Source: Paenibacillus baekrokdamisoli (lineage in GTDB: Bacteria > Bacillota > Bacilli > Paenibacillales > Paenibacillaceae). Taken from it: a DNA stretch of 64,000 bases. The notes beneath the pieces were generated by a model, which had not been told where the DNA came from, made no database searches, and was given only the letters and a program-made list of their open reading frames with translations. A program made the translations under genes and the position numbers. The stretch is from assembly GCF_003945345.1 (NCBI RefSeq), contig NZ_AP019308.1:4791501-4855500 (forward strand). The letters run 5' to 3'. Each line of letters begins with the position of its first letter. Positions within the stretch are counted from its first letter, which is position 1. Shown piece by piece: positions 42,333 through 60,171 of this stretch.

Positions 42333-42956
42333 TTAGAAGGACTTTTTACGTCTTCTCGAATCATTATTAGAACTAGTAAAAGCAGGAAATAATGCCACTA
42401 CAAGTCCGACGAGCAAGCCAACCAATCCTGCTGCTGCAAGATAAAGTTTTTGGAATGAAGTAGCCTTTGTTGGCGGAGTAGCCGCTTTAATATCAATTAC
42501 ACTGTCATCAACGGTAATTTTCTTGGAAAACTCCTTAAACACAGCAATAATTTGATTTGCTATAATTGCGGCTTTTTGAGGATCCTGATCCTTAACGCTC
42601 ACCGTCACAATATGGCTGTCATTTTTGTTTGTAATCTCTACCTTCTTGGCAATATCTTGAGGTGTCAGTGTCTGTGCCCATTTATACTGCGCTGCCAACT
42701 GCTCTTGCACGGGATAAGTCACTGCATCAGATGGAAGGAGTACTTTATAGTCTTTAATTAAGCTGATAGCAGCTAGCAGTTCCTGATATAAGTTGGTGGA
42801 GGTACTCGTCGTTTGTCTCAGGATATATACAGAGGCATCCGCAGTATATTCTGCAGGCTTACTAGAACTATAGTAGAGGATAGGCCCTACAAAAACAGCA
42901 AGCGATATAATAACGATCCAAAACCTCTTTAATAACAATCCAAGTAAAGCACTCAT
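42333..42956 (-). CDS. Wzz/YveK-type chain-length or capsular regulator
   Basis: 207-residue polysaccharide co-polymerase: TM1 at about 10-30, an extracytoplasmic helical domain (PAEYTADASVYILRQTTS, DPQKAAIIANQIIAVFKEFSKKI), a Pro-containing segment PPTKATSFQK, and TM2 at about 168-190. No kinase domain is fused, and no separate tyrosine kinase (CpsD/YveL) is in the window. It sets chain length and couples polymerisation to export. It is last of the minus-strand EPS operon, 36 bases after ugd. The ATG is taken, although a TTG six bases upstream fits the GGGG ribosome site as well. Confidence 0.85.
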   Translation of the reverse strand: MSALLGLLLKRFWIVIISLAVFVGPILYYSSSKPAEYTADASVYILRQTTSTSTNLYQELLAAISLIKDYKVLLPSDAVTYPVQEQLAAQYKWAQTLTPQDIAKKVEITNKNDSHIVTVSVKDQDPQKAAIIANQIIAVFKEFSKKITVDDSVIDIKAATPPTKATSFQKLYLAAAGLVGLLVGLVVALFPAFTSSNNDSRRRKKSF

Positions 42957-42992
42957 TTTCAATTATTCCCCATCCTTTGTGTAATGGAGTCC

Positions 42993-44312: not shown

Positions 44313-44335
44313 CACAACACCTCAAATTTTTCTTG

Positions 44336-44818
44336 TTATTCTATCTGTTTGGCAAGAGCGTCAATTAACCCAATGATCTTTTCATTACCGCTAACGAATT
44401 TTTTCGTATGAAAAGATTCAATCTCATGAATTGCCGTTTCGAGCTCCTCAACTTCATCCAGGCCAATAATCAGTTTATTCTCCGAAAAGTATCCAATAAT
44501 TTCCAACTGATGATCGTCCACATGTTCGTTATATTTCTTTAGTCGCGGTACAGCGATGATCTTTTTGCCTTTTTTTAAACCTCCGACTATTGTACCTGTG
44601 CCCCCGTGAGTAATTAGGAAACTGCATTCCTGCAAGAGTGCATCAAACTCTTGAAAATCTGTAAATGGCCTGTATGCATAATGCCTAGGTTTATAATCGT
44701 TATAACCGATCTGAGCGAACACTTCTTCCTTTATAACGCCCGTTTCTATTAACCGATCAATCTCCCTAAGCAAGCGCTCAAATTGAAAATCTTGCGTTCC
44801 AAGAGATAGAAGAATCAA
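44336..44818 (-). CDS. PssE/Alg13-like glycosyltransferase catalytic subunit
   Basis: 160-residue GT28 C-terminal-type protein (MILLSLGTQDFQFERLLREID at the start, then LLQECSFLITHGGTGTIVGGLKKGKKIIAVPR carrying the nucleotide-sugar site). The TTG at 44818 is chosen: GGGGGGAG is about six bases upstream, and it overlaps the PssD stop (TTGA). PssE/PssD pairs are split versions of MurG-type enzymes, as Alg13/Alg14 in yeast; the rhizobial PssDE pair transfers glucuronate, which fits the neighbouring ugd. Confidence 0.85.
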   Translation of the reverse strand: MILLSLGTQDFQFERLLREIDRLIETGVIKEEVFAQIGYNDYKPRHYAYRPFTDFQEFDALLQECSFLITHGGTGTIVGGLKKGKKIIAVPRLKKYNEHVDDHQLEIIGYFSENKLIIGLDEVEELETAIHEIESFHTKKFVSGNEKIIGLIDALAKQIE

Positions 44819-45273
44819 TATATGCTCCCCCCATAAACAGCCTTCGGATAGAAACGAAGCATAGATTCCCATTGTACAATGAACAAGTCAGCAAATTTAT
44901 ATACAAGCTTTCCTGTTAAGGTTGGTGAATTCATTTTGGCGAAACTTTCGATATATACAACTTTTTTCCTCATGAGCTTGCCTATTATACAAGAAGGAAT
45001 GGAACTCAGCGCCCCGGTACAGATGATAAGATCAGGCTTTTCTTTTATTAAACAAAACAGGGTTTTAAAGAAAATAACGAGCATTAAAAATGGAAAGTTC
45101 CATTTTTTACGATTAATTAGCTCTAATAAATATACATTTTCTTTCTTTGCCAGCTCTCTAGTCATCAAGGTATCTTCCGTAATAAAAAAATAGTTATGCT
45201 GCTTATATAGCTTTTCCAGCTGTCTCATTTGCGTGAGATGTCCTCCAACAGAGCATGCCAATGCTACCTTCAT
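44815..45273 (-). CDS. PssD/Alg14-like membrane subunit of a split glycosyltransferase
   Basis: 152-residue acceptor-binding partner of PssE. The N-terminus VALACSVGGHLTQMRQL is the Alg14 hallmark, followed by a hydrophobic stretch (FPFLMLVIFFKTLFCLI) that attaches it to the membrane and PDLIICTGALSSIPSCIIGKLMRKKVVYIESFAKMNSPTLTGKLVY. It ends four bases into the PssE start, so the two subunits are coupled. Start at 45273 with GAGGTAATAGAC upstream. Together they add a sugar, probably glucuronate, to the lipid-linked repeat. Confidence 0.87.
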   Translation of the reverse strand: MKVALACSVGGHLTQMRQLEKLYKQHNYFFITEDTLMTRELAKKENVYLLELINRKKWNFPFLMLVIFFKTLFCLIKEKPDLIICTGALSSIPSCIIGKLMRKKVVYIESFAKMNSPTLTGKLVYKFADLFIVQWESMLRFYPKAVYGGSIY

Positions 45274-45278
45274 GTCTA

Positions 45279-47156
45279 TTACCTCCTGTCTACTGAAGAA
45301 CGAAACCAAATTTCGAGATTTAATAACATCCAGATTTCCTTCTCATGATTGGTGACGCCATTAATATGCGCTTTTACCATTTCTTCGACTTTTTTCTTAT
45401 TGAAAATTCCTCGATTAAAGAAAGTTGAGGATAAGAGATGGTCTGTCACAAAGTCTTTCATTTCATTCCTAAACCAGTCTGCAATCGGCATATAAAACCC
45501 GATTTTTTTACGATTAATAATATGGTTTGGCAAATATTTCTCTGCAACCTTCTTTACGATATATTTCCGGTTGAAGCCATTAATTTTATAAGACTCTTTG
45601 ATACGGAAAGCAAATTCAGCTAAACGATAGTCCAGGAACGGAAGCCGACCTTCAATGGATGCTGCCATCATCGTACGATCACCACGCTCAAGAAGATTAT
45701 CGGTTAGCCAAAACTTCATGTCGTAATACTGCATCTTGTCCAGATTCGTAACCCCATTAATCACAGGAAACCGAGCACTAGCGTCAGAAAGATATTGATT
45801 TTTGAATTCATCTGAGAGCAGACTATCTGCCTGGGACTCCGAAAAAGAAGCGAACCAATTTCTATATCGTTTAACATCATCTTGAATACTCAAACTGTTG
45901 TAAGCCAATTTCGCTTTACGGAAGGAGTAAGGCAAGGAATTAACCATTTTGGAGATTAAACGATTGTTAAAAACAATTTTCCCCCATGCCGTATCAGTGA
46001 GCTGATCGTAAGCATATTTAGGATATCCGCCAAACAGCTCATCGCATCCTTCTCCAGTCAACACGACACTGACTTCTTTTTTCGCCTGACGTGACATCAG
46101 GAGCATCGGTATATCTGCCGTTTCAGACGAGGGCGCATCACGAAAATGAACGACCTGATAGAGGCTGTCCCGAAAATCCTTTGGACTAATTACAAATTCA
46201 TGATGATCTGTTTTGAACATGTCTGCTACACTTTTAGCATAACCGAGCTCATTGTATTGGGAATTCTCTAAGCCTACCGAAAAAGTCTTAATAGGCTTAC
46301 TGCTATTTTGTGCCATCATGGCAACAATCAGGCTTGAATCCAGCCCACCGCTCAGATAAGCGCCTACAGGCACATCACTAATCATTCTTAAGCGAATGGA
46401 GTCTTGCATTAATTGATCTAGTTCCATTTGCGCATCCGAAAAGGAAAGATTCCTCTTCTCGAAGTTAGTAATATCCCAATATTTCTTCTTCGTTAGCTGA
46501 CCTTGTTTATACAACAAGAAGCTGCCTGGCTCCAGCTTCATCATACCTTTATAGATGGTTTCTGGATTACTAACGTAGCGATTTCTTGTATAGTCTATTA
46601 ATGCGGAGTTATTCACGGACTTATGTATGCCGGGAAATTGGAAAATGGATTTGATTTCTGAAGCAAAAACAAAAGTTGAGCCTGGCTCATACATGTAAAA
46701 CAAAGGACGAATTCCCAAACGATCTCTGGCAATAAATAATTGTTCCTTCTCTCGATCGTAGATAGCGAATGCAAACATTCCATTGAGATATTGCAGACAA
46801 TCCTCGCCGTATTTCTCGTATAGGTTTAAGATAACCTCTGTATCTGTATTTGTTCGAAACTGCCAGCCTTCACTTTCTAATTCGACCCTTAAAGGTTGAT
46901 AGTTATATATCTCACCATTAAAAACAATGGTTGTTTTCCCACTTACGGAAGTCATTGGCTGTTTACCTTTGACCGATAGATCAATAATACTGAGCCGTTT
47001 ATGTCCTAGGCCTACAATCCCATTATTACTGTTAGAGAATACATGGATATCTTCACTATCCGGCCCGCGATGGTGGATTGCATCGATCATGGACTTAAGT
47101 ATATTGGTATAGTTACTATTGGCTATATTTGTATAAAAACCGGCTAATCCACACAT
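45279..47156 (-). CDS. asnB: Asparagine synthase-type glutamine amidotransferase
   Basis: 625-residue class-II amidotransferase: N-terminal nucleophile C2 (MCGLAGFY), RGPDSED, VGLGHKRLSIIDLS, then the ATP-pyrophosphatase loop GAYLSGGLDSSLIVAMMAQ. It is embedded in the EPS operon, five bases before pssD, which suggests it does not serve general asparagine supply. AsnB-like enzymes in surface-polysaccharide loci can amidate uronic acids; glucuronate amidation is a reasonable inference here, not proven by sequence. Confidence 0.88.
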   Translation of the reverse strand: MCGLAGFYTNIANSNYTNILKSMIDAIHHRGPDSEDIHVFSNSNNGIVGLGHKRLSIIDLSVKGKQPMTSVSGKTTIVFNGEIYNYQPLRVELESEGWQFRTNTDTEVILNLYEKYGEDCLQYLNGMFAFAIYDREKEQLFIARDRLGIRPLFYMYEPGSTFVFASEIKSIFQFPGIHKSVNNSALIDYTRNRYVSNPETIYKGMMKLEPGSFLLYKQGQLTKKKYWDITNFEKRNLSFSDAQMELDQLMQDSIRLRMISDVPVGAYLSGGLDSSLIVAMMAQNSSKPIKTFSVGLENSQYNELGYAKSVADMFKTDHHEFVISPKDFRDSLYQVVHFRDAPSSETADIPMLLMSRQAKKEVSVVLTGEGCDELFGGYPKYAYDQLTDTAWGKIVFNNRLISKMVNSLPYSFRKAKLAYNSLSIQDDVKRYRNWFASFSESQADSLLSDEFKNQYLSDASARFPVINGVTNLDKMQYYDMKFWLTDNLLERGDRTMMAASIEGRLPFLDYRLAEFAFRIKESYKINGFNRKYIVKKVAEKYLPNHIINRKKIGFYMPIADWFRNEMKDFVTDHLLSSTFFNRGIFNKKKVEEMVKAHINGVTNHEKEIWMLLNLEIWFRSSVDRR

Positions 47157-47205
47157 TTTGATGCCCCTTTCTATATCCGATCACACTGTAATGACGCATT
47201 TTGGT

Positions 47206-48264
47206 TTATACGTCCCTATATATGTCAACCAACTGATCAAGAACTACATTCAAATCATGTGGCTGAACAATCGTTTTGCTTTTTTGACCATAACGCAATC
47301 TAAGGTGAAAGTCATTGACAAGCATTTCTACAGCTTCTGCTAGAGAACGAGTATCGCCTGGCTCAATAAGAAATCCATTCTCATCCTTGCGGACAATTTC
47401 TGGTATTCCTCCTACATTAGTACTAATCACTGGTAGTCCATAGGCCATGGCCTCTAAGATGGAGATCGGTAAGCCTTCTGCATACGAGGGCAAAATATAT
47501 ACATCCGCATTGGAGAGAAACTTTTTTTTCTGTTCTCCATCAATCCAGCCATGCACGATGCAATTTCCAGTTAGCTGCTTTGATGCTATATACTCTTTTA
47601 ATTTATCAATCTCATTATTGCCGCAAACATGCAGGGTTACCTTGTTTCTTGATGACTCGGGTAGCAGCTCAATAGCATCTACCAAGTCATATATACCTTT
47701 GCGTGGACCAATCTCCCCTAAAAACAGTAATTGAACTTTATCATGCGCTTCTTTATAAGCATCAATTTGAGCTTGCTCTGGGATAACAATGGGATTCGGC
47801 AGCACGCTCACTCGATCATTATCACAAGATGTTTCTACTAGCCTCTTCATTTGATCGGAAAGTACGATAATATAATCTGCACGATTAAGCGTTTTTCTCA
47901 CTAACCACGAATTAAAGCGATTACTCTGCTTAAAATCTTCAAACCCTGAAGCGTGTATATGAAAAACAAGTTTCTTATTCAATATTTTTGAGAGATAGGT
48001 GTATATCGATTTTCGGTAGAAACTGCCTTTTGCAGCAGAATGCAAGTGAACGATATTATAGGATATGGATGAGAATGGGAACCTCAGAATTGCTAGTATA
48101 GAATAAATAATACGCAGGAATGGACTGACGCTATCTATATAGGATGAAAAACGATTAATTGTTACATCCGTATTCCTTTGTTTCAAGCCTTCCATTAGAG
48201 AAATGATAACCGAATTAATGCCACCCTTTACTTTCCTGGAATTGGCTGCGATAATCACTTTCAT
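47206..48264 (-). CDS. GT4-family glycosyltransferase
   Basis: 352-residue GT-B fold retaining glycosyltransferase. The N-terminal glycine-rich loop is RKVKGGINSVIISLMEGL. The C-terminal nucleotide-sugar site has LFLGEIGPRKGIYDLVDAI and the E-x7-E motif in YAEGLPISILEAMAYGLPVISTNVGGIPEIV. It probably acts at the inner membrane face on the undecaprenyl-linked repeat. The start overlaps the preceding gene by four bases. Sugar and linkage unknown. Confidence 0.9.
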   Translation of the reverse strand: MKVIIAANSRKVKGGINSVIISLMEGLKQRNTDVTINRFSSYIDSVSPFLRIIYSILAILRFPFSSISYNIVHLHSAAKGSFYRKSIYTYLSKILNKKLVFHIHASGFEDFKQSNRFNSWLVRKTLNRADYIIVLSDQMKRLVETSCDNDRVSVLPNPIVIPEQAQIDAYKEAHDKVQLLFLGEIGPRKGIYDLVDAIELLPESSRNKVTLHVCGNNEIDKLKEYIASKQLTGNCIVHGWIDGEQKKKFLSNADVYILPSYAEGLPISILEAMAYGLPVISTNVGGIPEIVRKDENGFLIEPGDTRSLAEAVEMLVNDFHLRLRYGQKSKTIVQPHDLNVVLDQLVDIYRDV

Positions 48265-49406
48265 TTTGCCACCTCTTTGCTGCTAGCTTTGCTTATTAAA
48301 CGACGATATAGGCCTAAGTACTCTATACACATTGTCAATATGTCGAATTTCTGTAAATATTGTTTCTTTTTGCTGTTTTTGATTATACCATATTTGCTAT
48401 TAGATGCTTGCATAAGTTTTTCACATAAATCTCTTTCATTTCCAACTTCAAACAGCAGGCCTAGAGAACCATCTTGCAGAAGTTCAGCAGGGCCCTCAAT
48501 ATTACTGGATATTACATCCAGTCCAGATGCAAGTGCTTCAAGCAGGACTAATCCAAATCCTTCTGTTCGTGATGGCATAACAAATAGATCATATTGAGGC
48601 AGCAATTTCGGCACATCGTTTCGATTACCCAGAAATTTCACTTTATCCACGAGTCCATACTGCTCCACTAAACTATTTAGGTAAGGCAGCGAATTTTTAT
48701 CGTAATCGTATTGCCCTCCAATAAAATGGCATTCAAACGAGCAGAAACCCTGCTGCTTAAGCAAGTGGAGAGCCCGTATGAGAATGTCCTGTCCCTTAAT
48801 GCGGTGGGTAATACGCCCAACATTCACAATTCGGAGAATGCCGTCTCCCATAAACTCACGGTTGCCTCCCTTGAATCGAGAAAATCGAATACCGTTATAA
48901 ATCAACGAGGCTTTGTTAATCCCATTCTCATAGCAGTACTGCAGCACAGAATTGGAGATGGCAATATTATGGTTTACTACTCGTTTATGCAAACCCATTT
49001 TCAACCTGGACAGGGAATCGAACAGAAATTTATCATGAACGGAGAAGATTAATTTAAGACTTGGCTTTCTTAGCTTGCAAAGCATAGAGAAATGCTTACT
49101 TCCATGATCATGTGTATGAATAACACCAATACGGTGCTTGTTGACAATTCCGAATAACCTCAGCAGATGCTTAGGATTTCGATCCCCTTCACCACGTTCC
49201 AAAAAATAAACCTCTTTGCAGAGGCTTTCCAATTGCTTTCGCAGATAGGGATCATACTTATTGTTCATAACCACGACAACTAATTCGAATTCACTGTCTA
49301 TTTCAGAAAATGTTTCCGCAAAATCGAGCAACAGTGTCTCAATGCCCCCCATTTCGAGGGAAGAAATAAGATGGAGTATCCCCGTTTTATGACTCTTGGT
49401 TTGCAA
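48261..49406 (-). CDS. GT4-family glycosyltransferase
   Basis: 381-residue GT-B enzyme from a TTG start behind GGAGGGAG. It starts ILHLISSLEMGGIETLLLDFAETF and carries GRITHRIKGQDILIRALHLLKQQ, FLGNRNDVPKLLPQYDLFVMPSRTEGFGLVLLEALASGLDVISSNIEGPAELL. It is a clear paralogue of the next gene upstream (49437-50555): the same start, the same GGxYDYDK and NDVP segments. The two likely arose by tandem duplication and add related sugars. Confidence 0.9.
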   Translation of the reverse strand: MQTKSHKTGILHLISSLEMGGIETLLLDFAETFSEIDSEFELVVVVMNNKYDPYLRKQLESLCKEVYFLERGEGDRNPKHLLRLFGIVNKHRIGVIHTHDHGSKHFSMLCKLRKPSLKLIFSVHDKFLFDSLSRLKMGLHKRVVNHNIAISNSVLQYCYENGINKASLIYNGIRFSRFKGGNREFMGDGILRIVNVGRITHRIKGQDILIRALHLLKQQGFCSFECHFIGGQYDYDKNSLPYLNSLVEQYGLVDKVKFLGNRNDVPKLLPQYDLFVMPSRTEGFGLVLLEALASGLDVISSNIEGPAELLQDGSLGLLFEVGNERDLCEKLMQASNSKYGIIKNSKKKQYLQKFDILTMCIEYLGLYRRLISKASSKEVAK

Positions 49407-49436
49407 CTATACTCCCTCCTCCCTATACACTCTCAA

Positions 49437-50555
49437 CTACTTCGCCGTCAAACTTTGGTACAAATCTCTATAGTTCGCCAGCATGACAGCCATATCGAAT
49501 TCCTTTACTCCTCGCGAAGCCTCGGCAACCATGTTCATCCGCTTACTAGAATTAATACTCATTGCTAGAATCTGATTAGCCAAATCTACATCATTTTCGC
49601 TTTCAAATAGGTATCCATTTAGACCATGCTTGATTAACTCTGAAGGCCCATCGATATTTGCAGCTATAACCGGCAAACCCGCTGCCATTGCCTCTAATAT
49701 AACCAATCCCAATCCTTCATATCTGGATGGAAGCACGAATACATCATATTGGGCTAAATGCGAAGGAACATCGTTGATATTCCCAAGAAAATGAATTTTA
49801 TCAGTGATTTGAAGCTCCGCTGCAAGGGCCTTCAACTGAATCATAGAATCCTTATCATATTCATAAACACCACCTATGAAGGAGCAAGAAACATCCAGCC
49901 CTTTATGAAGACATTCATGAACAGCACGAATCAATACATCCTGTCCTTTTTTTCGATGCGTAATCCGGGCCACATTTACAAGTTTAATTTCTCCGTTAAT
50001 CGCATTATTGTTTTTCCTAAAGGCATAAAACTTCTCCAAACGAATGCCATTATATATTCTTGTCGTATTATTTATATGGCGCTCGGTACATTCGTCCAAA
50101 ACAGCATTGGAAATCGCAATATTACGATTAATGATTTTTTTGTGAAGGAAGATATGAAAACCACTAAGTTTCTTAACAATATGGGTGTCATGAATCGTAA
50201 AGACTAAGCGAAGCTTGGGGAATAACATTTTACATAGAATGGCCCACATTTTACTTCCAAAATTATGAGAATGAATAATTTGAATTCGATTCTTCCGAAT
50301 AATCCCCATCAGCTTCAACAAGTATTTGGGATGACGATGCTTTGGCGGCCTCTGCAGAAGATGTACCTCACAGCCAGTAGCCAAGAGCTCGTCCTTCAAT
50401 TCCTCACTGATAAGATCATTCATAATGACAACAGTAAAGGCTACTTTGGGTTGTGCTGCGTTTTCTGCGATCAAATCAAGCAGCAGCTTCTCCGCGCCTC
50501 CCATTTGAAAAGCCGATATTAAATGCAGTACTCGAACAGTTGATTCGGTTTTCAT
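49437..50555 (-). CDS. GT4-family glycosyltransferase (paralogue of the next gene)
   Basis: 372-residue GT-B enzyme: VRVLHLISAFQMGGAEKLLLDLIAE, NVARITHRKKGQDVLIRAVHE, FLGNINDVPSHLAQYDVFVLPSRYEGLGLVILEAMAAGLPVIAANIDGPSELI. Similarity to 48261-49406 extends over the whole length. It lies 24 bases after the flippase gene in the operon, behind AAAGGAGAAC. Confidence 0.9.
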   Translation of the reverse strand: MKTESTVRVLHLISAFQMGGAEKLLLDLIAENAAQPKVAFTVVIMNDLISEELKDELLATGCEVHLLQRPPKHRHPKYLLKLMGIIRKNRIQIIHSHNFGSKMWAILCKMLFPKLRLVFTIHDTHIVKKLSGFHIFLHKKIINRNIAISNAVLDECTERHINNTTRIYNGIRLEKFYAFRKNNNAINGEIKLVNVARITHRKKGQDVLIRAVHECLHKGLDVSCSFIGGVYEYDKDSMIQLKALAAELQITDKIHFLGNINDVPSHLAQYDVFVLPSRYEGLGLVILEAMAAGLPVIAANIDGPSELIKHGLNGYLFESENDVDLANQILAMSINSSKRMNMVAEASRGVKEFDMAVMLANYRDLYQSLTAK

Positions 50556-50579
50556 TTTGTTCTCCTTTATCCAAAACGT

Positions 50580-51848
50580 TTAGCCTGCTTCTGATAATTT
50601 CTTGGTATAGCTAGAATAGAGCCTAAACAATATTATGCCGTATAGCAACCTGGCAATTGCAACTGAAATAGCCGCCCAGATTAAGCCCCAATAAGGCACG
50701 GTAACCGTAATAAGCAGAACAATCAATACAATCTGTACACATTTGCCTATCGTAATAAATTTAGGTTTACCTAATGAATAAATGGCTTGTTCAATAGGTA
50801 TTAATGCAAACGCAATTATAGCGGACAGCAGCATGAACTGTAGAATAGAAACGGATGGAAGATATTTGGACCCCAGAATAAGTGAAATAACAGGCCTTGC
50901 TAGCGGAATTAATACCAGCATCCCAAGGGAAATGTAAAGGGTTGGTTTCAGTATCTTTTTCGTAAACGCCACGACCTTCTCAGGACTAAGCTCGGATAGG
51001 GTCGGCAGCATAACTTTACTCAACACAAAGGGAAGAAATGCCACAATCGCAGATAATTGAAAGGCAACGTTATAAATTCCGAGTTGATCATAAGCTACCC
51101 AAATAGCGATCATCAAAAAGTCGATTCGGCCTAAGGTATTATTGGGTATTGATACCATTAGCATCCACTTCTCATAGTGAACAATGTCCAACAACATGAC
51201 ACGAACGATTCGCTTAGAAAAATAACTCTTAAGAAAATAAATGTATTTAGAAAGAAAGAAGACCGAAATGAGAAGGGGGAGTAGGTATAAGAAGATGACA
51301 TATTTAAGCAAAATAGCATGATTCAGATACAACAGAAGAATGAACAGGAGGGAAAAAATATACCTAAAGATATTGATCATTGCGCGCAGCTTGAACTTTT
51401 GAACAGCCTGCAAATAGGTATCATTGACAAAAAGCAAGGACTCCCCCAGAAAACCGATTATAAAATAAGGGATATATTGAATGATATCCTCACGCCCAAG
51501 CAGCGTGAATATAAAGCTCCCAAAGAAAAAAACAACACCGATCACAATGAATATAATAGAGAGTTTCGTAAACAAATACAGGCCGAAGATAACATTGGTG
51601 TTCTCCTTATCTTTAGCTGAGAAACGGACGGCTGTATTCTCCATCCCAAAGTCGAATAAAGCACTGCAAAATGCGATGTTAACGAAAAGGTATGAGTATT
51701 TACCATAATCCTCTGGTCCCAAATTAACAGATAGCAGCAAAATGATAATGAAGCTTAATGCTTTCGTCACGATGTTCTCAGAGAATACAATGCTTAAATT
51801 CCTAAAGAGGCGATTTTGCAAAAAACTGTTTTTTTTCGAATGTTCCAT
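50580..51848 (-). CDS. Wzx-type polysaccharide flippase
   Basis: 422-residue MATE/MOP-superfamily transporter with about 12 membrane segments (RNLSIVFSENIVTKALSFIIILLLSVNLGPEDYGKYSYLFV at the start; LGIYNVAFQLSAIVAFLPFVLSKVMLPTLSE in the middle). It moves the lipid-linked repeat unit across the membrane before Wzy polymerises it. Second gene of the minus-strand arm, eight bases after the deacetylase stop. Confidence 0.9.
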   Translation of the reverse strand: MEHSKKNSFLQNRLFRNLSIVFSENIVTKALSFIIILLLSVNLGPEDYGKYSYLFVNIAFCSALFDFGMENTAVRFSAKDKENTNVIFGLYLFTKLSIIFIVIGVVFFFGSFIFTLLGREDIIQYIPYFIIGFLGESLLFVNDTYLQAVQKFKLRAMINIFRYIFSLLFILLLYLNHAILLKYVIFLYLLPLLISVFFLSKYIYFLKSYFSKRIVRVMLLDIVHYEKWMLMVSIPNNTLGRIDFLMIAIWVAYDQLGIYNVAFQLSAIVAFLPFVLSKVMLPTLSELSPEKVVAFTKKILKPTLYISLGMLVLIPLARPVISLILGSKYLPSVSILQFMLLSAIIAFALIPIEQAIYSLGKPKFITIGKCVQIVLIVLLITVTVPYWGLIWAAISVAIARLLYGIILFRLYSSYTKKLSEAG

Positions 51849-51855
51849 ATTACAG

Positions 51856-52881
51856 TTACCTTCTATTCTTGTTAAAATAATGTTTTATCTTTAGTTTTAG
51901 AAGCCGGAATCTTAATTGTTGCACGCCAATATTCTCAACGATCACACGGTCGAGCTCCCATAGATCATGACCAGAATAATTAATTCCATTTATGGCTGTA
52001 ACAGCTGTCGAATATATTTTGGAAACTTCCTTTTTAACGGCATCATTATAATCGACGCTTCTTCCATAAGGGTAAGCAAAATGCCGAACTTCTTGTCCAA
52101 TTCTTTGATCAATTAATGATTTCGATTGCTTCAACTCTCCAATTGCTTCTTGCAAATCTATTGCACTTAATGTCGGGTGATGCATAGTATGGCTACCCAT
52201 TTGAACGTTAACTTCCATAAGCTGCTTAACTTCATGCCAATTAATCATTAACGCATCGCTCGTCATTATTCCCACTTCTAAACGATATCCCAGTTCCTTA
52301 ATCATTTGCTGCTTAATCTGTTCATTATGTTGCTTAATCTCATTCTTAACCAGTTCTGATAACTGAACACGATCGTGTTGGGTAGTAAGACTAAACTCCC
52401 CTTTAAGGTTCTGAAGCTTCAATAGGACAGAGTCCAGCTTGCTGGAAAATACCATATGGTCAATGCTATCAGTCCATAAAGGCATCCTCTCTTCAATAGG
52501 TGATGCGGTTAAAAATATGGTCGCAGGAATCTCAAACTTTTTGAATAGAGCCTGTCCGAGTGTGAAATTATCACGATAACCATCATCAAAAGTGACCACC
52601 ATGTAGTTTTTCTTCAGCTTCGCTTGCTTTAGCAAGGGTTCTACTTGATCCAACGTGATGATTTCGAATTGCTTATTATAGTATTGGAAATGATCGGCAA
52701 GGTTTTTTTGAGTGATAGCCAGAACATGAACATCTTTTGCGGGGAGATTCTCCGATATTCGATGATAACCTACAATATATAATCCTTTTGTAAAAAAAAG
52801 CTTGTCCAGTATAAAATATATCCCTGAGAAGTAAATCACAGAAAAAATAAATGACTTTGCAAATTGTAACATTTTACCCAT
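51856..52881 (-). CDS. Membrane-anchored polysaccharide deacetylase of the EPS locus
   Basis: 341-residue carbohydrate esterase 4 protein. The ATG at 52881 follows TTGGAGTG by about seven bases; a 21-codon extension upstream lacks a site. An N-terminal membrane segment (about 8-27) is followed by LYIVGYHRIS, VVTFDDGYRDNFTLG, MGSHTMHHPTLSAI and VRHFAYPYGRS. An insert of about 80 residues (DSIDHMVFSSKL...) separates the second and third motif groups, as in capsule-locus deacetylases. It would remove acetyl groups from an N-acetylated sugar in the polymer. First gene of the minus arm. Confidence 0.87.
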   Translation of the reverse strand: MGKMLQFAKSFIFSVIYFSGIYFILDKLFFTKGLYIVGYHRISENLPAKDVHVLAITQKNLADHFQYYNKQFEIITLDQVEPLLKQAKLKKNYMVVTFDDGYRDNFTLGQALFKKFEIPATIFLTASPIEERMPLWTDSIDHMVFSSKLDSVLLKLQNLKGEFSLTTQHDRVQLSELVKNEIKQHNEQIKQQMIKELGYRLEVGIMTSDALMINWHEVKQLMEVNVQMGSHTMHHPTLSAIDLQEAIGELKQSKSLIDQRIGQEVRHFAYPYGRSVDYNDAVKKEVSKIYSTAVTAINGINYSGHDLWELDRVIVENIGVQQLRFRLLKLKIKHYFNKNRR

Positions 52882-53010
52882 AAAACACTCCAACCTTTTG
52901 AGTTCTGAAATTTTCTGACATTTTATTCGTTCATACATGGTCATATTTTATATGCTTCTATAATAAAGAGCAATATGATATTATAATTCGACAAATATCT
53001 AGAAAGTTGA

Positions 53011-53049: not shown

Positions 53050-53147
53050 TAGCATGTATTATCTGTAAATCTCTATTTATTTTGTAAATTTCATTAATTC
53101 CAAAGACCTAGTTCACCTCTCATAAATGTGTTTAAAGGATGAAGCAA

Positions 53148-54539
53148 ATGCATAAGTTCAATAACAATTCTTTTTTTCATTTTTCCATGCTTTTCTGTGA
53201 TGTAGCTGCAGTTATTATTTCTTTCTGTTTATCCTATCAAATCGTAGGGAATATTATTGAGCTCCATGAATTCAAAAGCTTCTTCTGGATGTTTCTTATA
53301 TTCATTGCTTTGTATACTTCAACTATGAATCTGTATAACATGTATAATAAGCTCACATTTACATATTACGATCGGATTATTAGAAATGTTTTTAACTCCG
53401 TACTTATCGCTACTCTATCGATCTTGCTTATGATCTATTTTCAAAGCGGTCTTAGCTACAGCCGACACTTTTTTTTCACCTTTATTGGCATCTCATTCTT
53501 ACTAGTTATTTCCTTTCGAACCTACTTTACATATTCCAAAAAACGAACGATTGGATTGCGTAAAAGAGTTCTTGTCGTTGGTGTCCAAAACGTTATAGAA
53601 AAATTCGAATACTATGTAAATAAAACCAATGTAAATATCGATATAATAGGATATGTGGAGTTAAATTCGGAAAGTCCTCTGACAAACTCACCGCTTCTTG
53701 GCAAAATCACAGATCTGGAACAAATACTAAGACAGCATGTAGTGGATGAAGTCTTTTTTGCAATAGGAGACAAGCAAGTTACTAGTATAGAGAATCATGT
53801 CGCTTTATGTGAGAATATGGGGGTTACATCCCGTCTCATTCTGGACTTGTATAGCTTGAGTGTTTCTAAATCTCACTTTACTGGTATTGGAACTTTACCT
53901 ATGCTTACCTTGCACACGGTGAGTTTAAATGATTTCCAATTGTACTTCAAAAGAATTCTAGATTTAATAGGTTCAATCGTAGGGATTCTTATCACTGCTT
54001 TCCTATTTATCTTTCTTTACCCCTTGATAAAACTAGATTCCAAGGGACCTGCCTTATTCGCTCAAAAACGTGTAGGAATTAATGGACGAGTCTTTAACAT
54101 TTATAAATTTCGGACCATGCAGATTGATGCCGAACAACAAAAGCAGAAATTAATGAATGAAAATAAGGTGGACGGTGGGTTTATGTTCAAAATGAACAAT
54201 GACCCTAGAGTCACCCGAGTTGGTCAATTTCTGAGAAGAACTAGCCTAGATGAACTCCCCCAGTTCTTTAATATTTTCTTAGGTCATATGAGTCTGGTAG
54301 GAACTCGTCCGCCAACTCTTGATGAGGTAAAGCGCTATGAAACACATCACTATCGTAGAATTAGTATCAAACCAGGCTTGACGGGGATGTGGCAAATTAC
54401 CGGCCGAAGTGAAATAACTAACTTTGACCAAGTCGTAAAATTAGATACCGAATATATAGATCAATGGTCAATATGGCTCGATGTTAAAATTATTATTAAA
54501 ACGATTATGGTTGTGTTCAATCGAAAAGGTGCTTATTGA
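53148..54539 (+). CDS. Undecaprenyl-phosphate sugar phosphotransferase (initiating)
   Basis: 463-residue polyprenyl glycosylphosphotransferase of the WbaP/WcaJ type. Four N-terminal membrane segments and a CoA-binding-like central domain (KRVLVVGVQNVIEKFEYYV) precede the catalytic part: KRILDLIGSIVGIL, GPALFAQKRVGINGRVFNIYKFRTM, RVGQFLRRTSLDELPQFFNIF, MSLVGTRPP and KPGLTGMWQITGRSE. It loads the first sugar phosphate on undecaprenyl phosphate. The ATG at 53148 is used because AAAGGA lies eight bases upstream. Confidence 0.93.
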   Translation: MHKFNNNSFFHFSMLFCDVAAVIISFCLSYQIVGNIIELHEFKSFFWMFLIFIALYTSTMNLYNMYNKLTFTYYDRIIRNVFNSVLIATLSILLMIYFQSGLSYSRHFFFTFIGISFLLVISFRTYFTYSKKRTIGLRKRVLVVGVQNVIEKFEYYVNKTNVNIDIIGYVELNSESPLTNSPLLGKITDLEQILRQHVVDEVFFAIGDKQVTSIENHVALCENMGVTSRLILDLYSLSVSKSHFTGIGTLPMLTLHTVSLNDFQLYFKRILDLIGSIVGILITAFLFIFLYPLIKLDSKGPALFAQKRVGINGRVFNIYKFRTMQIDAEQQKQKLMNENKVDGGFMFKMNNDPRVTRVGQFLRRTSLDELPQFFNIFLGHMSLVGTRPPTLDEVKRYETHHYRRISIKPGLTGMWQITGRSEITNFDQVVKLDTEYIDQWSIWLDVKIIIKTIMVVFNRKGAY

Positions 54540-54578: not shown

Positions 54579-55466
54579 ATGAAAGTAAAAAAAGCAATTA
54601 TTCCAGCTGCTGGGTTAGGTACTCGTTTTCTGCCAGCAACTAAAGCGATGCCTAAAGAAATGCTGCCTATTGTAGATAAACCTACCATCCAGTACATCGT
54701 TGAAGAAGCTGTTGCTTCAGGAATCGAAGATATTATCATTGTCACAGGTAAAGGAAAAAGAGCGATTGAAGATCATTTTGATAACTCCGTTGAATTAGAG
54801 AAGATATTGTTCGATCAAGGGAAATTCGACTTACTTGAACAGGTGCAGCATCCTACTTCTCTAGCTAATATTCATTATATTAGACAAAAAGAGCCTAGAG
54901 GTTTAGGTCATGCCATCTGGTGTGCACGTAAATTCATTGGAAATGAGCCCTTTGCAGTTCTACTTGGCGATGATATCGTAGTATCTGAAAAGCCATGTCT
55001 AGAGCAATTAATTGAGGTTTATGATAAATATCGCGTTTCCGTCTTAGGTGTTCAATCTGTTCCAGATTCAGCAGTTTCACGATATGGAATTGTAGATGGA
55101 TTATCTTTAGAAGAACATATTACGAGGGTAACACGTCTGGTAGAAAAGCCAAAGCTGGAAGAAGCACCCTCTAACTTAGCGATCATGGGTCGATATATTC
55201 TCACTCCACGAATCTTTGAAATTCTTGACTCCCAGAAGCCAGGAGCTGGTGGCGAGATCCAATTGACGGATGCAATTGCTACTTTAAATCTAGTAGAAGC
55301 CGTATATGCTTACGACTTTGAAGGCACCCGTTATGATGTGGGTGAGAAATTAGGATTTATTCAAACCATGTTGGAGTTTGCGCTCAATCGATCCGATTTA
55401 AGAAATGATCTACTTTTACAAATGCAGGTTTTATTAGATAAGTATAGTCTTACCTCATCCAAATAA
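54579..55466 (+). CDS. galU: UTP-glucose-1-phosphate uridylyltransferase
   Basis: 295-residue nucleotidyltransferase: [84 protein letters not shown]. It makes UDP-glucose, the substrate of Ugd in the opposite arm. AGGAGGGAATCC precedes the ATG, 39 bases after the transferase stop. The gene is followed by the c-di-GMP riboswitch, so it lies outside that control. Confidence 0.95.
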
Positions 55467-55505
55467 AATTCCACTCTAACATTAGTACCTCTACTTCTAT
55501 AAACA

Positions 55506-55599
55506 AATATCGTATAAAGGCAAACCTAGTGAAAACTAGCGACGCAAAGCTATAGGGGCTACGGTAATCTACCATGCCAGCCAGCTTCCGGTACATATT
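55506..55599 (+). promoter_or_regulatory. Cyclic-di-GMP-I (GEMM) riboswitch
   Basis: Diagnostic elements in order: GGCAAACC, a CTAGT-GAAA-ACTAG tetraloop hairpin, GACGCAAAGC, GGGGCTACGG...CCATGCCAGC (tetraloop receptor arm) and CCGG. A P1 stem can form from AATAT(C)GTA (55506-55514) with TACATATT (55592-55599). It is followed directly by a terminator and two GH10 genes. The fold class binds c-di-GMP with its conserved core; the regulatory direction cannot be told from sequence. Confidence 0.9.
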
Positions 55600-55600
55600 C

Positions 55601-55621
55601 CTTTTACTTAAGAAGTAAAAG
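55601..55621 (+). promoter_or_regulatory. Possible antiterminator hairpin of the riboswitch
   Basis: Perfect 9-bp stem CTTTTACTT/AAGTAAAAG with a three-base loop. Its 3' arm overlaps the first five bases of the terminator stem, so the two structures compete. Confidence 0.5.
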
Positions 55622-55653
55622 ACTTATCCGGATTATTGGATAAGTCTTTTTTT
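55617..55653 (+). terminator. Riboswitch-controlled terminator
   Basis: 12-bp stem AAAGACTTATCC/GGATAAGTCTTT with an 8-base loop and a run of seven U, 35 bases before the first GH10 start. It forms the expression platform of the c-di-GMP riboswitch. Confidence 0.9.
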
Positions 55654-55687
55654 ATAAAAACTATCAAAAGGGATAAGGTGATCGCAA

Positions 55688-56785
55688 ATGAAGATTATCA
55701 TTCGCAAACATTTTTGGAAAGCTACAATCTTGTCTCTTTTAGCATTAAATCTTTTCTTCAAAACCTCCTTCTTGGATATTGTGTCGGACTTCGCAGATGA
55801 TTTGAGCAACAGAGTACATAACATGTCAACATCTGGATTAAGAGATGCGGCTGCAGCTAAAGGTAAGCATATTGGGGTTGCCACTCAATCTTGGTATTTA
55901 ACCGACTCCAAGTACTCCTCCTTGCTATCCAATGAATTCGATATCATTACGCCTGAATATCAAATGAAAATGAGTGAGATTCAAGATCAACGAGGTGTAT
56001 TCGACTTTACGGAGGCCGATAAAATTGTTGATTTTGCCAAACGGAAAAACATACTAGTTAGAGGACATGCCCTAATCTGGCATGACGCCCTACCATCATG
56101 GGTAGTTAATGGCAACTTCTCAAAAACCGAATGGATTCAGATCCTCAAGGATCATATCACAACGACTGTAAGCCATTTCAAGGGAAAAATATACGCCTGG
56201 GATGTTGTCAATGAAGCGTTCTGGACAAACGGGGATTATCGTCCATCCATTTGGTACACAAATATAGGACCACAATATATTGAAATGGCCTTCAAATTTG
56301 CCCATGACGCAGATCCATCAGCCAAATTATTCTACAATGATTTCGATACGGAAGTTACAAACGCTAAATCAAATGCCATGTATCAAATGATTAAATCACT
56401 TAAGTCTAAAGGCATTCCCATTGATGGGGTTGGCTTTCAGACGCACTTAACGACTGACGGTGTGAATTATAATGATATGACAAATAACTTTCAACGTTTT
56501 GCTAAATTAGGATTAGATACGGATATAACTGAAATGGACGTCATTAGTCACGTTTTTAAAGGCTCTTTTGAAGCAAAAATGAAAGCTACGGCCGATGTGT
56601 ATTCAAACGTTTATAAAATTGCCCTTAGCCTTCCAAGTTGTAAGGTGTTCATGACATGGGGATTGAAGGATGATCACAGCTGGTTAAACGAGGATACCGG
56701 ATTCCAAGAGTACCCTCTACTTTTTGATAATTCTTATAACAAAAAGCCAGCTTACACCGCCATGGAGAGTTTATTGAAAAAATAG
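55688..56785 (+). CDS. GH10 glycoside hydrolase (endo-xylanase family), first copy
   Basis: 365-residue family 10 hydrolase. The N-terminus has a hydrophobic segment (about 11-25, ATILSLLALNLFFKT) without a clear cleavage site, so it may be membrane-anchored and face outward. The catalytic domain starts at KGKHIGVATQSWYL; acid/base Glu about 176 is in WDVVNEAFW and nucleophile Glu about 282 in DITEMDV. GH10 cleaves beta-1,4-xylan, but in an EPS locus the substrate may be the cell's own polymer. It is controlled by the c-di-GMP riboswitch. AAGGTGATCGCAA precedes the ATG. Confidence 0.9.
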   Translation: MKIIIRKHFWKATILSLLALNLFFKTSFLDIVSDFADDLSNRVHNMSTSGLRDAAAAKGKHIGVATQSWYLTDSKYSSLLSNEFDIITPEYQMKMSEIQDQRGVFDFTEADKIVDFAKRKNILVRGHALIWHDALPSWVVNGNFSKTEWIQILKDHITTTVSHFKGKIYAWDVVNEAFWTNGDYRPSIWYTNIGPQYIEMAFKFAHDADPSAKLFYNDFDTEVTNAKSNAMYQMIKSLKSKGIPIDGVGFQTHLTTDGVNYNDMTNNFQRFAKLGLDTDITEMDVISHVFKGSFEAKMKATADVYSNVYKIALSLPSCKVFMTWGLKDDHSWLNEDTGFQEYPLLFDNSYNKKPAYTAMESLLKK

Positions 56786-56813
56786 TCAAATATGAGAATA
56801 GAGGTGAAAACAT

Positions 56814-57926
56814 TTGAAGATACTAGGAACCCGAACATTCTGGGAAAAGAATGTTTGGAAAGTTGGAGTAACCACATTGTTAATTGTGAATCTATTTTTA
56901 AACACTTCATTAATTGACATAGCTTCCAAATTGTCTAATCAGCTAACAAACCAAGTGAATACGCAAGCAGACTCATCCTTAAAGTCATTTGCCCAACTAA
57001 AAAATAAGCATATTGGGATCGCCACTCAATCCTATTATGTAAATGATTCTCAGTATGCATCTGTTCTCAATCATGAATTTGACATTATTACCCCAGAGTA
57101 TCAAATGAAAATGGGTCAAGTTCAACCTCAAAAGGGAGTATTTAATTTTGATGAGGCTGATAAACTGGTTTCCTTTGCTACAAAGAACAATTTACTTATT
57201 CGTGGTCACGCTCTTATTTGGCATCAATCACTCCCCGATTGGGTAGTCAATGGAACCTTTACCAAGGAGCAATGGATCAATATTATGAAAGATCATATTA
57301 CCCAAACCGTTTCCCACTTCAAAGGAAAAATATACGCTTGGGATGTTGTCAATGAAGCTTTCTGGCAAAATGGGGCCTATCGTCCTACTGTCTGGTATGA
57401 CAACATAGGACCTGAATATATCGAACTGGCGTTCAAATTTGCCCATGATGCTGATCCTAATGCAAAACTTTTCTATAATGATTTTGATACCGAAGTAACA
57501 AATGATCGATCGAATGCTATCTATAAAATGGTCACAGCCTTAAAAGCCAAAGGTGTTCCTATTGATGGCATTGGCTTTCAAACTCACTTAACGATAAATG
57601 GTGTAAACTACGCTGAAATGAAGAAGAACTTTCAACGCTTTGCTGATCTTGGATTAGACACGGACATCACCGAGCTAGATATTGTTACACATACCTTTAG
57701 CGGGACTCAGGAAGAAAAGCTACAAGCACAGGCTGAGGTTTACAGTAATATATTTGATATAGCTTTGAACTTACCAAGTGTAAAATCCATTGTGTTCTGG
57801 GGTATGAAGGATGGTCAGAGCTGGTTAAACAAATATACTGGGTTTGCCGAATATCCTTTGCTATTCGACAATTCTTATGACAAGAAGCCCGCGTACAAAG
57901 CTATACTACAAAAATTAAACACCTAA
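56814..57926 (+). CDS. GH10 glycoside hydrolase, second copy
   Basis: 370-residue paralogue of the preceding gene, from a TTG behind AGAGGTGAAAA. It has the same layout: hydrophobic segment (VGVTTLLIVNLFLNTSLIDIAS), then KNKHIGIATQSYYV, acid/base Glu about 181 in WDVVNEAFW, nucleophile Glu about 287 in DITELDI, and the shared TNxxSNAxYxM and YPLLFDNSYxKKPAYxA segments. The 28-base gap shows cotranscription, so both copies share the riboswitch. Divergence is largest at the N-terminus and in the last third. Confidence 0.9.
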   Translation: MKILGTRTFWEKNVWKVGVTTLLIVNLFLNTSLIDIASKLSNQLTNQVNTQADSSLKSFAQLKNKHIGIATQSYYVNDSQYASVLNHEFDIITPEYQMKMGQVQPQKGVFNFDEADKLVSFATKNNLLIRGHALIWHQSLPDWVVNGTFTKEQWINIMKDHITQTVSHFKGKIYAWDVVNEAFWQNGAYRPTVWYDNIGPEYIELAFKFAHDADPNAKLFYNDFDTEVTNDRSNAIYKMVTALKAKGVPIDGIGFQTHLTINGVNYAEMKKNFQRFADLGLDTDITELDIVTHTFSGTQEEKLQAQAEVYSNIFDIALNLPSVKSIVFWGMKDGQSWLNKYTGFAEYPLLFDNSYDKKPAYKAILQKLNT

Positions 57927-57946
57927 TCTCCCATTACTCTTATTTA

Positions 57947-58010
57947 CCCCTTATAAAGATATCAGAATCGGATTTAGTATTTCTGATATTACTTTATAAG
58001 GGGTCTTTCT
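57947..58010 (+). terminator. Terminator after the GH10 pair
   Basis: Long stem CCCCTTATAAAG/CTTTATAAGGGG extended inside by ATCAG/CTGAT, followed by TCTTTCTTT, 21 bases after the stop. The riboswitch unit is thus bounded at both ends and may be transcribed apart from the genes that follow. Confidence 0.8.
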
Positions 58011-58128
58011 TTGTGTTTTATGGTATTATTGAACTAGAGAAAAAAGGCTGGATAGCAGTTTATTGACATTAACCGCTAAGCAACGACATTTTGTTCTCAC
58101 TCTTAGTAAAACACAAAGGAAGATAGCA

Positions 58129-58755
58129 TTGAAAAATAAAAATCTATTAAATACTTTTGCCAAAAATAGTTTGATTATCCTTTGGTGCATCATTATTTGC
58201 ACCAGTTTCTCTTGGTATTTCACTTACCATGTGGCTAAAACAAATTATGAAGCAATATCTGAAATTATGGTGCTCAATAAACCTGCAGACTCCGCACTAA
58301 AAGATGATCAGCCCCAAGAAACAGAATTGATCCTAGAATTACTAGCCAGTTTAGCAATTGTTAATGATTTTCAAACGATTATTTTATCTGATGTCATCTT
58401 AGACAAAGTAAAAGAACAGCTAGTCTCTAAGTATTCCTGGGCAAGTAAAATCTCTCTTGCAGATCTTCGCAAGAACATAGACGTTAATATTAAAAATGAC
58501 ACCCGTATTCTCAAAATAAGCGCGTTTGATACCAATCCACAACATGCTGCCATCATGTCTAATACTGTGAAAGCAATATTCACTACGTTCGCTCAAAAAT
58601 TGACACTTCAGAAATTAATCATTCCTATTAAAAATGCTGAAATTCCGAACACTCCTTCGTTTCCTTATCCAAAAAGATTTATAAGTTTATCCATTATTAT
58701 AGGCTTCCTTACTGGGCTTATCCTAACCATGTATATTTCAAGAAGACCAACGTAA
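58129..58755 (+). CDS. Second Wzz/YveK-like protein
   Basis: 208-residue polysaccharide co-polymerase-like protein from a TTG with AAAGGAAG six bases upstream; a 22-codon extension has no site. TM1 lies at about 12-32 (KNSLIILWCIIICTSFSWYF) and TM2 at about 178-202 with a preceding Pro-rich PNTPSFPYPKR. The middle is helical (NPQHAAIMSNTVKAIFTTFAQKL), paralleling NPxxAA in the first Wzz. It lacks a kinase. Having two Wzz-like genes at opposite ends of one locus suggests two chain-length settings or a heteromeric complex. Confidence 0.8.
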   Translation: MKNKNLLNTFAKNSLIILWCIIICTSFSWYFTYHVAKTNYEAISEIMVLNKPADSALKDDQPQETELILELLASLAIVNDFQTIILSDVILDKVKEQLVSKYSWASKISLADLRKNIDVNIKNDTRILKISAFDTNPQHAAIMSNTVKAIFTTFAQKLTLQKLIIPIKNAEIPNTPSFPYPKRFISLSIIIGFLTGLILTMYISRRPT

Positions 58756-58788: not shown

Positions 58789-60171
58789 ATGCCATTAAAT
58801 AAAAAAACCGGGGTTTTGATATTCTTAACTCCATTATTGATCGGCTTTCTTTTTGCATTTCTTCTCAAAACCCACTTTTACGTGTATATTGTCTATATTT
58901 TATTAGGTATCGTCTATTATCTATTAGTAAAACGATTTGGAAAAGAAATCTCATTTGTGTTCTTGATACCTACCGTTACTATTGCTTTAGTGCTTGTAGG
59001 GCAAATTTTTCTGCTTGATTTCTATGACCATAATGGTTTAAATCCAATAAAAATTCACCCTTTGGTCTTTTCACTGCTGATTATGATTTATTTAACGTTT
59101 ATTGAAGATCTTATAAAGAAAAGACTTGTCTGGGATAAAGTCACAATTGTAACACTGATTATTCTAGGGTTGTTTTTTTCTATTACTTTTCTACACCGTG
59201 GTCTTAGCGGTATTAGTAATTTCAATCACAATTACCTTGCTCCAATGTCATTTTTTTATTTTATTTACACCCAAAAAAGTTATAACAGAAAAAAGCTAAA
59301 CTTGTATACTAATGTCATTCTGATTGTGTTAGTTATTATTGGTGTTTCAGGGTTAATTGAATACATTTATCAAACGAATCCGCTGCAGTCTATTTATGAT
59401 AACGAAACTCCAACTTGGATTGAAGGAACCTACCATGAAGGTTATCGGATAAAAACGATTATCGGACATCCATTGGATAATGCTTTAGTATTTTTGTTTA
59501 GTATGATAATGGTTCAAGTGAATGTTAAAAACCTCTACCTAAAGTATCCGCTGCTTATTTTATTTATGCTGGATATTCTCGTATCTGGTTCAAGAAGTAT
59601 ATTTGTACTCTCCTTTCTTGTGCTCATTTATAATGATTCAATCAAAGAGAATGGTTGGGGATTCATTAAAAAATATTTATTGTTTCTAACGCCCGTTATC
59701 CTATTAATTGTCGGACTGATATTCTCACCGCTTGGCCAAACCTTTTTAAATCGAGTAAATGGTGCTGACTCTTCAACAGAGGCTAGATATATGATATTGA
59801 ACTACTTTTTTCACCATTTATTTTCCTTTCAGTTTTTGGGATTAGGAGGTGCAACCGAAGAAATTGTACTTTATAATTCCAGCCATGAAAGTGTTTATTT
59901 AGAGAATCCTTGGATAATTTTATTCTTTGAAGTGGGGTATTTTGTTTTCCTCTTTATTTATTATTTATATCTTGTAATTAAGAAGATTGAGTACAAGTAT
60001 TTTGTAATTGTACTTCTAATTGCTCTTTCTGCTATGAATTCATTTGGAGTTAAGACTATTGATATTTACTCGTTGTTTTACCTATTAGCTTATTTCTATG
60101 CACTCAAAGTTTCCAAGAATCCAATGCCCTCCATAAAGTCTGAAGTCCAGCAGGATTCACCTAATTCTTAA
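58789..60171 (+). CDS. Wzy-like polysaccharide polymerase/O-antigen ligase family protein
   Basis: 460-residue integral membrane protein with about 11-12 segments and a large loop near residues 200-225 (QTNPLQSIYDNETPTWIEGTYHEGYRIKTIIGHP), as in Wzy/WaaL proteins. It would join repeat units outside the membrane. AACGAGG precedes the ATG, 33 bases after the Wzz stop. Sequence within this family is poorly conserved; the assignment rests on topology, the loop and context. Confidence 0.82.
   Translation: MPLNKKTGVLIFLTPLLIGFLFAFLLKTHFYVYIVYILLGIVYYLLVKRFGKEISFVFLIPTVTIALVLVGQIFLLDFYDHNGLNPIKIHPLVFSLLIMIYLTFIEDLIKKRLVWDKVTIVTLIILGLFFSITFLHRGLSGISNFNHNYLAPMSFFYFIYTQKSYNRKKLNLYTNVILIVLVIIGVSGLIEYIYQTNPLQSIYDNETPTWIEGTYHEGYRIKTIIGHPLDNALVFLFSMIMVQVNVKNLYLKYPLLILFMLDILVSGSRSIFVLSFLVLIYNDSIKENGWGFIKKYLLFLTPVILLIVGLIFSPLGQTFLNRVNGADSSTEARYMILNYFFHHLFSFQFLGLGGATEEIVLYNSSHESVYLENPWIILFFEVGYFVFLFIYYLYLVIKKIEYKYFVIVLLIALSAMNSFGVKTIDIYSLFYLLAYFYALKVSKNPMPSIKSEVQQDSPNS

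Follow-up and report, generated by a model that had tools for sequence, protein, structure and literature searches.

Riboswitches of the c-di-GMP-I (GEMM-I) class, which sense cyclic di-GMP (c-di-GMP), are known upstream of adhesin, chemotaxis, and flagellar genes (PMC4933901, PMC9262584). Cd1 of C. difficile is an OFF switch whose antiterminator captures C87, the ligand-pairing residue, and whose aptamer and terminator can coexist, while in the pilM ON switch, which responds to cyclic GMP-AMP (c-GAMP), the terminator uses an aptamer strand (PMC9262584). Bc2 of B. thuringiensis, of the same aptamer class, is an ON switch upstream of a surface protein (PMC4933901), and Bc1 of that species binds without responding (PMC11218506). 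Glycoside hydrolase family 10 (GH10) genes in polysaccharide clusters are also already in print: prmN lies in the promonan cluster of Sphingomonas (PMC11340318) and sfz4, whose product has been proposed to hydrolyse the stalk polysaccharide, in a stalk cluster of Zetaproteobacteria (PMC8250860). Here we analyzed 64,000 nucleotides (nt) of the single-contig 7.26 Mb genome of Paenibacillus baekrokdamisoli (NZ_AP019308.1, positions 4,791,501 to 4,855,500; hereafter the window), in which a c-di-GMP-I aptamer and an intrinsic terminator precede two tandem GH10 genes inside a polysaccharide locus. We propose, with a probability of roughly 0.55, that a c-di-GMP-I riboswitch serves as a transcription OFF switch for two GH10 endo-glycosidases which are anchored at the cell surface and cut the cell's own Wzx/Wzy-type exopolysaccharide. 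Among the papers listed by a literature search which took in few subscription titles, there was nothing joining a c-di-GMP riboswitch to a polysaccharide-locus hydrolase and nothing on the -2 subsite pattern of polysaccharide-locus GH10s described below.

Riboswitch architecture and predicted polarity

A covariance search with the Rfam c-di-GMP-I model, suggested in a preliminary description of this DNA, returned a match to RF01051 at 55509-55592 on the forward strand which covered the full model (positions 1-87) and scored 67.6 bits (E 4.4e-11) against a gathering score of 35. This was the sole Rfam match at gathering level within the window and was recovered again when the whole genome was searched with RF01051. 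The aptamer carries GGCAAACC at 55519, with G rather than A in front of CAAACC at what we take to be the ligand-selectivity site, and by its sequence it appears to belong to the class sensing c-di-GMP, which it would be expected to bind. The intrinsic terminator (55617-55657, forward strand) consists of a 14-pair stem (55617-55630 with 55637-55650) followed by a U run; the hairpin at 55617-55650 has a folding energy of -17.0 kcal/mol (z -6.1), and none of 200 shuffles was equally stable. A second hairpin at 57946-58004 on the same strand (-27.2 kcal/mol, z -6.5, its stability matched by none of 200 shuffles) may end the GH10 unit. A simple terminator scanner listed neither hairpin. What the preliminary description had reported, a GEMM-I aptamer with a terminator before two GH10 genes in a polysaccharide locus and a second terminator behind them, was thus confirmed as an observation, the second element being a hairpin. 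Its claim that only the hydrolases are under the switch fits the second hairpin, but no promoter was listed by the scanner between galU and the aptamer, and the switch may therefore act as a valve partway along a longer operon. By eye, a weak promoter-like CTAACA-N16-TATAAA was seen in this interval at 55476-55503.

Polarity was explored by folding growing transcripts, by partition function and by minimum energy, for the window and for the related locus of Cohnella sp. AR92. The extended P1 predicted for the window reaches past the Rfam model (55506-55599, forward strand; 55506-55510 with 55595-55599 and 55512-55515 with 55591-55594) and has a mean pair probability of 0.77-0.64 at 127-131 nt. 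In ligand-free transcripts of 135-143 nt a helix forms between UCCGG at 55587-55591, in the aptamer 3' strand, and CCGGA at 55628-55632, in the terminator 5' arm, with P1 down to 0.00-0.12. This proposed antiterminator (55587-55632, forward strand) encloses a 9-bp hairpin (55601-55609 with 55613-55621), and the aptamer strand which it takes up contains the presumed ligand-pairing C; in this strand, CC at 55588-55589 lines up with the conserved CC of the aptamer 3' end. Aptamer and terminator do not overlap, and the alternative helix draws on both. From 147 nt the terminator is thermodynamically preferred, so in this folding model the choice between the two folds must be kinetic; at 158 nt the P1 probability is 0.13.

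At 139 nt the window transcript has 4.7 expected pairs between the aptamer 3' strand and the terminator 5' arm, a value reached by 10 of 400 shuffled tails. Cohnella sp. AR92 has 4.1 at the same length despite its different sequence. The null was a mononucleotide shuffle of the letters 3' of the aptamer with the same two regions scored, and is no test of polarity; we regard the shuffle results as supportive of the modelled pairing, short of proof. Several results weigh against our proposal, among them the folding of Cohnella sp. AR92: its shuffle control was weak (34 of 400 tails reached the value), the chief rival helix of P1 is for the most part present alongside the terminator in the full-length transcript, and a P1 bonus of -6 kcal/mol, a crude mimic of the ligand, brought P1 only to 0.13-0.40 at 131-147 nt, so that the fold model by itself shows no ligand response. 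The predicted folds have the arrangement of Cd1, with a terminator that spares the aptamer strand and an antiterminator that takes this strand together with the terminator 5' arm, and by analogy of architecture an OFF switch is likely. If the switch is of this type, the GH10s would be made at low c-di-GMP, which points to matrix release. Release or maturation had both been offered in the preliminary description as the process linked to c-di-GMP, and a platform favouring OFF leaves maturation the less favoured of the two.

The GH10 pair and GH10s of other polysaccharide loci

GH10-1 (55688-56785, forward strand, 365 amino acids) and GH10-2 (56814-57926, forward strand, 370 amino acids, TTG start) share 64% identity and match PF00331 with E-values of 1.9e-106 and 2.1e-106. 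Both are members of the family by this profile and by possession of both catalytic Glu residues, which in GH10-1 are Glu176 and Glu282, with Tyr91, Ala134, Phe219, and Asp220 at subsite positions; GH10-2 has the same catalytic and subsite residues except for Ser in place of Ala134. The structure model of GH10-1 (mean predicted local distance difference test, pLDDT, 75.6, low in the N-terminal part) had Thermotoga GH10s as its best structural matches. Its N-terminal helix is hydrophobic by sequence, and the two enzymes may well be surface-anchored. The -1 residues named for Thermotoga XynB (PMC6163442), His104, Trp108, Asn152, Glu153, Gln228, His230, Glu259, and Trp308, are retained in both. 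In contrast, the conserved -2 subsite of GH10 endo-xylanases, made up of Glu, Asn, Lys, Gln, and Trp (PMC6163442), is complete in neither: in XynB numbering Glu67, Lys71, and Trp300 are retained, whereas Asn68 is replaced by Tyr and Gln111 by Ala or Ser. In a Streptomyces GH10 the -2 site substitution N86A left 8.28% of xylanase activity (PMC5877695). The -2 changes of Asn to Tyr and of Gln to Ala or Ser were found in all six members of the clade, and in both window enzymes Tyr196 at +1 is replaced by Phe and Ser197 at +2 by Asp. Where the -2 Gln is replaced by a small residue, the C6 group of glucose can be accommodated. A small residue here would suit a polymer containing hexose or glucuronic acid, as galU and the UDP-glucose dehydrogenase of the locus would allow. 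Genome-wide there was no other full-length GH10, and the one further partial match was weak (24.1 bits), though over the family cut-off. Both enzymes are probably processors of the locus's own polymer rather than xylanases.

On plasmids of Nostoc, Methylosinus, and several rhizobia, GH10 genes likewise have flippase, O-antigen-ligase and/or glycosyltransferase genes next to them. These contexts were author-chosen and neither random nor complete (14 of 50 rows listed, with 38 and 50 records matched), the rows passed over including Streptomyces, haloarchaea, Thermus, and Azospirillum. Nine of the plasmid GH10s lay within or next to polysaccharide genes; seven of these come from annotated records, where every one is named endo-1,4-beta-xylanase, and the other two are in records without annotation there. 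When open reading frames of the two unannotated records were checked with Pfam, Wzy_C was found in both and Wzz plus a flippase in T136, and the flippase-like frame of SOG26 gave no family match. A second tandem GH10 pair adjoins a polysaccharide operon in a genome from another family of the class (G515). Neither catalytic Glu is left in the second enzyme of that pair (L116 9946-11130; NE changed to SG, E to D), and this catalytically dead copy is possibly a binding-only partner of the intact one. No aptamer was found at gathering score at this tandem locus (L116) or at the Nostoc locus (L115).

Among 15 catalytically intact GH10s of polysaccharide loci the -2 Asn was kept in two, compared with 88 of 88 readable other homologs, and the -2 Gln in none, compared with 78 of 89. 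The nominal Fisher values of 1e-14 (Asn) and 1.6e-11 (Gln) overstate the difference, as the genes are related, six of the 15 belong to one clade, and the plasmid genes were hand-picked. The 89 others comprised 74 loci from one homolog search, nine from the family-genome search, and six plasmid genes. Screening of the 74 by tblastn for polysaccharide genes, some with short flanks, gave one weak sugar-transferase match (L026), and the nine were outside this screen. L069 and L074, odd at several active-site columns probably through translation frame trouble, were counted against Gln. Left out of the comparison were the dead G515 copy, two PDB rows, the GH10 of G629 (L117), which keeps both Asn and Gln, and a Mesorhizobium GH10 which has Trp and Glu at the two -2 positions and whose neighbours are a gene for a sugar-nucleotide dehydrogenase and, beyond the start of the record, one for a glycosyltransferase. 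Gln was replaced in 11 of the 89 others as well, sphingomonad sugar-use loci being one example, so that of the two residues Asn marks these sequences more cleanly, although the polysaccharide-locus GH10s of R. leguminosarum and G515 retain it, which tells against a strict residue rule. A 42-row tree required four changes (gains or losses) of the polysaccharide label, at least three of them forced by well-supported branches. We tentatively suggest, at somewhat less than even odds, that GH10s of polysaccharide loci are recurrently evolved non-xylanases, marked by an absent -2 Asn and Gln and acting on the producer's own polymer, and that in this lineage of Paenibacillaceae they form a matrix-release module which c-di-GMP represses through the riboswitch, at the level of RNA and without a protein regulator.

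The surrounding locus and its distribution

Upstream of the switch, on the forward strand, are genes for a polyprenyl glycosylphosphotransferase, the initiating sugar transferase (53139-54539; TIGR03025, E 2e-121, over cut-off), and, directly before the aptamer, galU (54579-55466; TIGR01099, E 5.2e-120, over cut-off). Downstream of the GH10 pair, also on the forward strand, follow a Wzz-like chain-length protein (58063-58755; PF02706, with TIGR01006 below cut-off) and a polytopic Wzy-like protein (58789-60171) which had no Pfam or NCBIfam match and is named from context only; a PAP2 gene is also found downstream. The rest of the locus (42333-52944, reverse strand) encodes a Wzz-like protein, UDP-glucose dehydrogenase, glycosyltransferases, three of which have Pfam support, an AsnB-like amidotransferase, a Wzx-like flippase, and a deacetylase. 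The AsnB-like protein (45279-47156) scored above the NCBIfam cut-off as asparagine synthase and below it as eps_aminotran_1, and may amidate a uronic acid. At 40527-42287 two cyclic-nucleotide-binding (cNMP-binding) domains are fused to a PrsW-type intramembrane protease, and in G077, a second genome of the genus, a similar protein was seen by eye in the corresponding position next to the locus. A check for xylan-use genes, in which 10 window proteins were family-scanned, gave a sulfatase gene (991-2427) and a GH3 gene (37297-40083, on the other strand). GH3 is a family of beta-glucosidases and beta-xylosidases, and this enzyme could act on sugars freed by the GH10s or be unrelated to them.

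With a limit of 1e-60 on E, relatives of GH10-1 were present in 12 of the 295 genomes searched in the family; a limit of 1e-100 gave them in 2 of 22 genomes of the genus and in 1 of the 37 genomes belonging to the genus of G101. The nearest named relative found was that of Cohnella sp. AR92 (Paenibacillaceae), with which G101 is apparently identical. A close GH10 pair occurred in only three of the 295 genomes (the window genome, G077, and G101), and in all three it lay in the same polysaccharide locus, so that linkage to synthesis genes holds across species. GH10-1 of G077 is 77% identical to that of the window. Plasmid matches to GH10-1 were all below 60% identity (38 records), and a phage origin of the GH10s was set aside after one scan of viral contigs yielded no relative. 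Gene order is largely kept at the three loci: G077 has the same order without the glycosyltransferase of 48261-49406 at that place, and Cohnella sp. AR92 has it from the AsnB-like gene, where the fetched stretch starts, with other genes after the Wzy-like one. The order aptamer-GH10-GH10 recurs in Cohnella sp. AR92 (aptamer 64.7 bits, platform diverged), which makes two of three loci with an aptamer. Relatives of the Wzy-like protein were found in 4 of 394 family genomes, namely these three and, at 45%, G046, where no GH10 was present among open reading frames of at least 170 amino acids in the fetched 19 kb. The G046 locus instead bears an epsC RNA (RF01735, 96.9 bits; L105 16885-16996), an RNA control of another type for a locus of this kind.

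Five RF01051 matches over cut-off were found in the genome, three of which, two in tandem, score as c-di-GMP-I-GGC, a related family, together with 23 GGDEF matches, 22 over cut-off. The tandem c-di-GMP-I-GGC aptamers (L098 3744-3947; G000:C1:466743-466946) lie upstream of a transglutaminase-like gene which adjoins genes for an LPXTG-type surface protein and a sortase-like protein, both named by eye. Other aptamers precede a PilZ gene, and a pyridoxal-dependent decarboxylase gene followed by a chemotaxis-receptor-like gene. Such a surface-and-signalling regulon fits a matrix role.

Proposed role, alternatives, and known systems

In the proposed mechanism, the ligand-bound aptamer would hold its 3' strand at high c-di-GMP and so block the antiterminator, RNA polymerase would halt before the GH10 genes, and the matrix would stay intact. 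At low c-di-GMP the aptamer 3' strand would pair with the terminator 5' arm, polymerase would read through, both GH10s would be made, and the matrix would be loosened or released. If this is correct, a drop in c-di-GMP would lead directly through RNA to matrix depolymerization, a step for which protein effectors have mostly been held responsible. Matrix-processing GH10s could then also be separated from xylanases by a simple test of their sequence, chiefly of the -2 Asn. That the enzymes trim the cell's own polymer, as the preliminary description had suggested, finds support beyond gene placement in the altered -2, +1, and +2 residues, the lack of another full-length GH10 in the genome, and the recurrence of such genes in unrelated polysaccharide loci; overall the earlier interpretation is partly supported.

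To the folding results from Cohnella sp. AR92 given above, further points on the opposing side have to be added. Deletion of prmN left colony morphology and exopolysaccharide production unchanged (PMC11340318), and a UDP-xylose-synthase-like gene occurs at 3485554, in another sugar locus of the genome, so that xylose may be a component of the locus polymer. The GH3 gene near the locus, the GH10 fold with its catalytic residues, and the Thermotoga xylanases as nearest solved structures would also suit ordinary plant-xylan xylanases placed in a polysaccharide locus by chance. We consider this quite improbable, as the -2 Asn and Gln are replaced, N86A having left 8.28% activity in the Streptomyces enzyme (PMC5877695), three species all have the pair within this polysaccharide locus, and in the G077 stretch no GH3-like frame was seen by eye at the corresponding point ahead of the locus.

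The switch, too, admits other explanations. Hydrolases in polysaccharide operons, such as PslG, PelA, and BcsZ, are often co-expressed with synthesis, and an ON switch, in which c-di-GMP prevents termination and the GH10s, produced alongside the matrix, trim or mature nascent chains, would agree with this and with Bc2, an ON switch of the same aptamer class (PMC4933901). It is nonetheless unlikely, as the window terminator at 55617-55650 spares the aptamer strand, unlike that of pilM (PMC9262584), and the fold which uses the strand is the antiterminator. G077 keeps both GH10s, and neither the gathering score nor a lax threshold of E up to 10 revealed an aptamer there; the link between aptamer and GH10s is therefore not obligatory. 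The G077 leader before GH10-1 (L082 1300-1480) has two hairpins, the second a terminator-like stem without a U run, and may be a decayed switch platform. The lack of a detectable aptamer in G077, and Bc1 with its binding without response (PMC11218506), would agree with a window switch which bound c-di-GMP and barely altered GH10 expression, or was being lost. This appears improbable, as two species whose platforms have diverged both retain a full-length aptamer, a strong terminator, and a competing helix, and we retain repression of the GH10s by c-di-GMP as the preferred explanation.

PslG, PelA, and BcsZ are self-matrix glycosidases of other GH families encoded with the polysaccharide they process, and none of them is known to have a leader riboswitch. 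PrmN and Sfz4, like the window GH10s, are encoded inside polysaccharide clusters, and no riboswitch is mentioned for either in the available text (PMC11340318, PMC8250860). The fold of GH10-1 is like that of Thermotoga XynB (PDB 1vbr, 3niy; template modelling score, TM, by target 0.90-0.92, 44-45% identity), as are the catalytic Glu and the -1 residues, while the window GH10s differ from XynB in their -2, +1, and +2 residues and GH10-1 differs also in its N-terminal hydrophobic helix. As in the Cd1 OFF switch (PMC9262584), the antiterminator of the window would pair the aptamer 3' strand with the switching strand of the terminator; unlike Cd1, which controls flagellar genes, the window switch, whose polarity is predicted only, precedes glycosidases in a polysaccharide locus.

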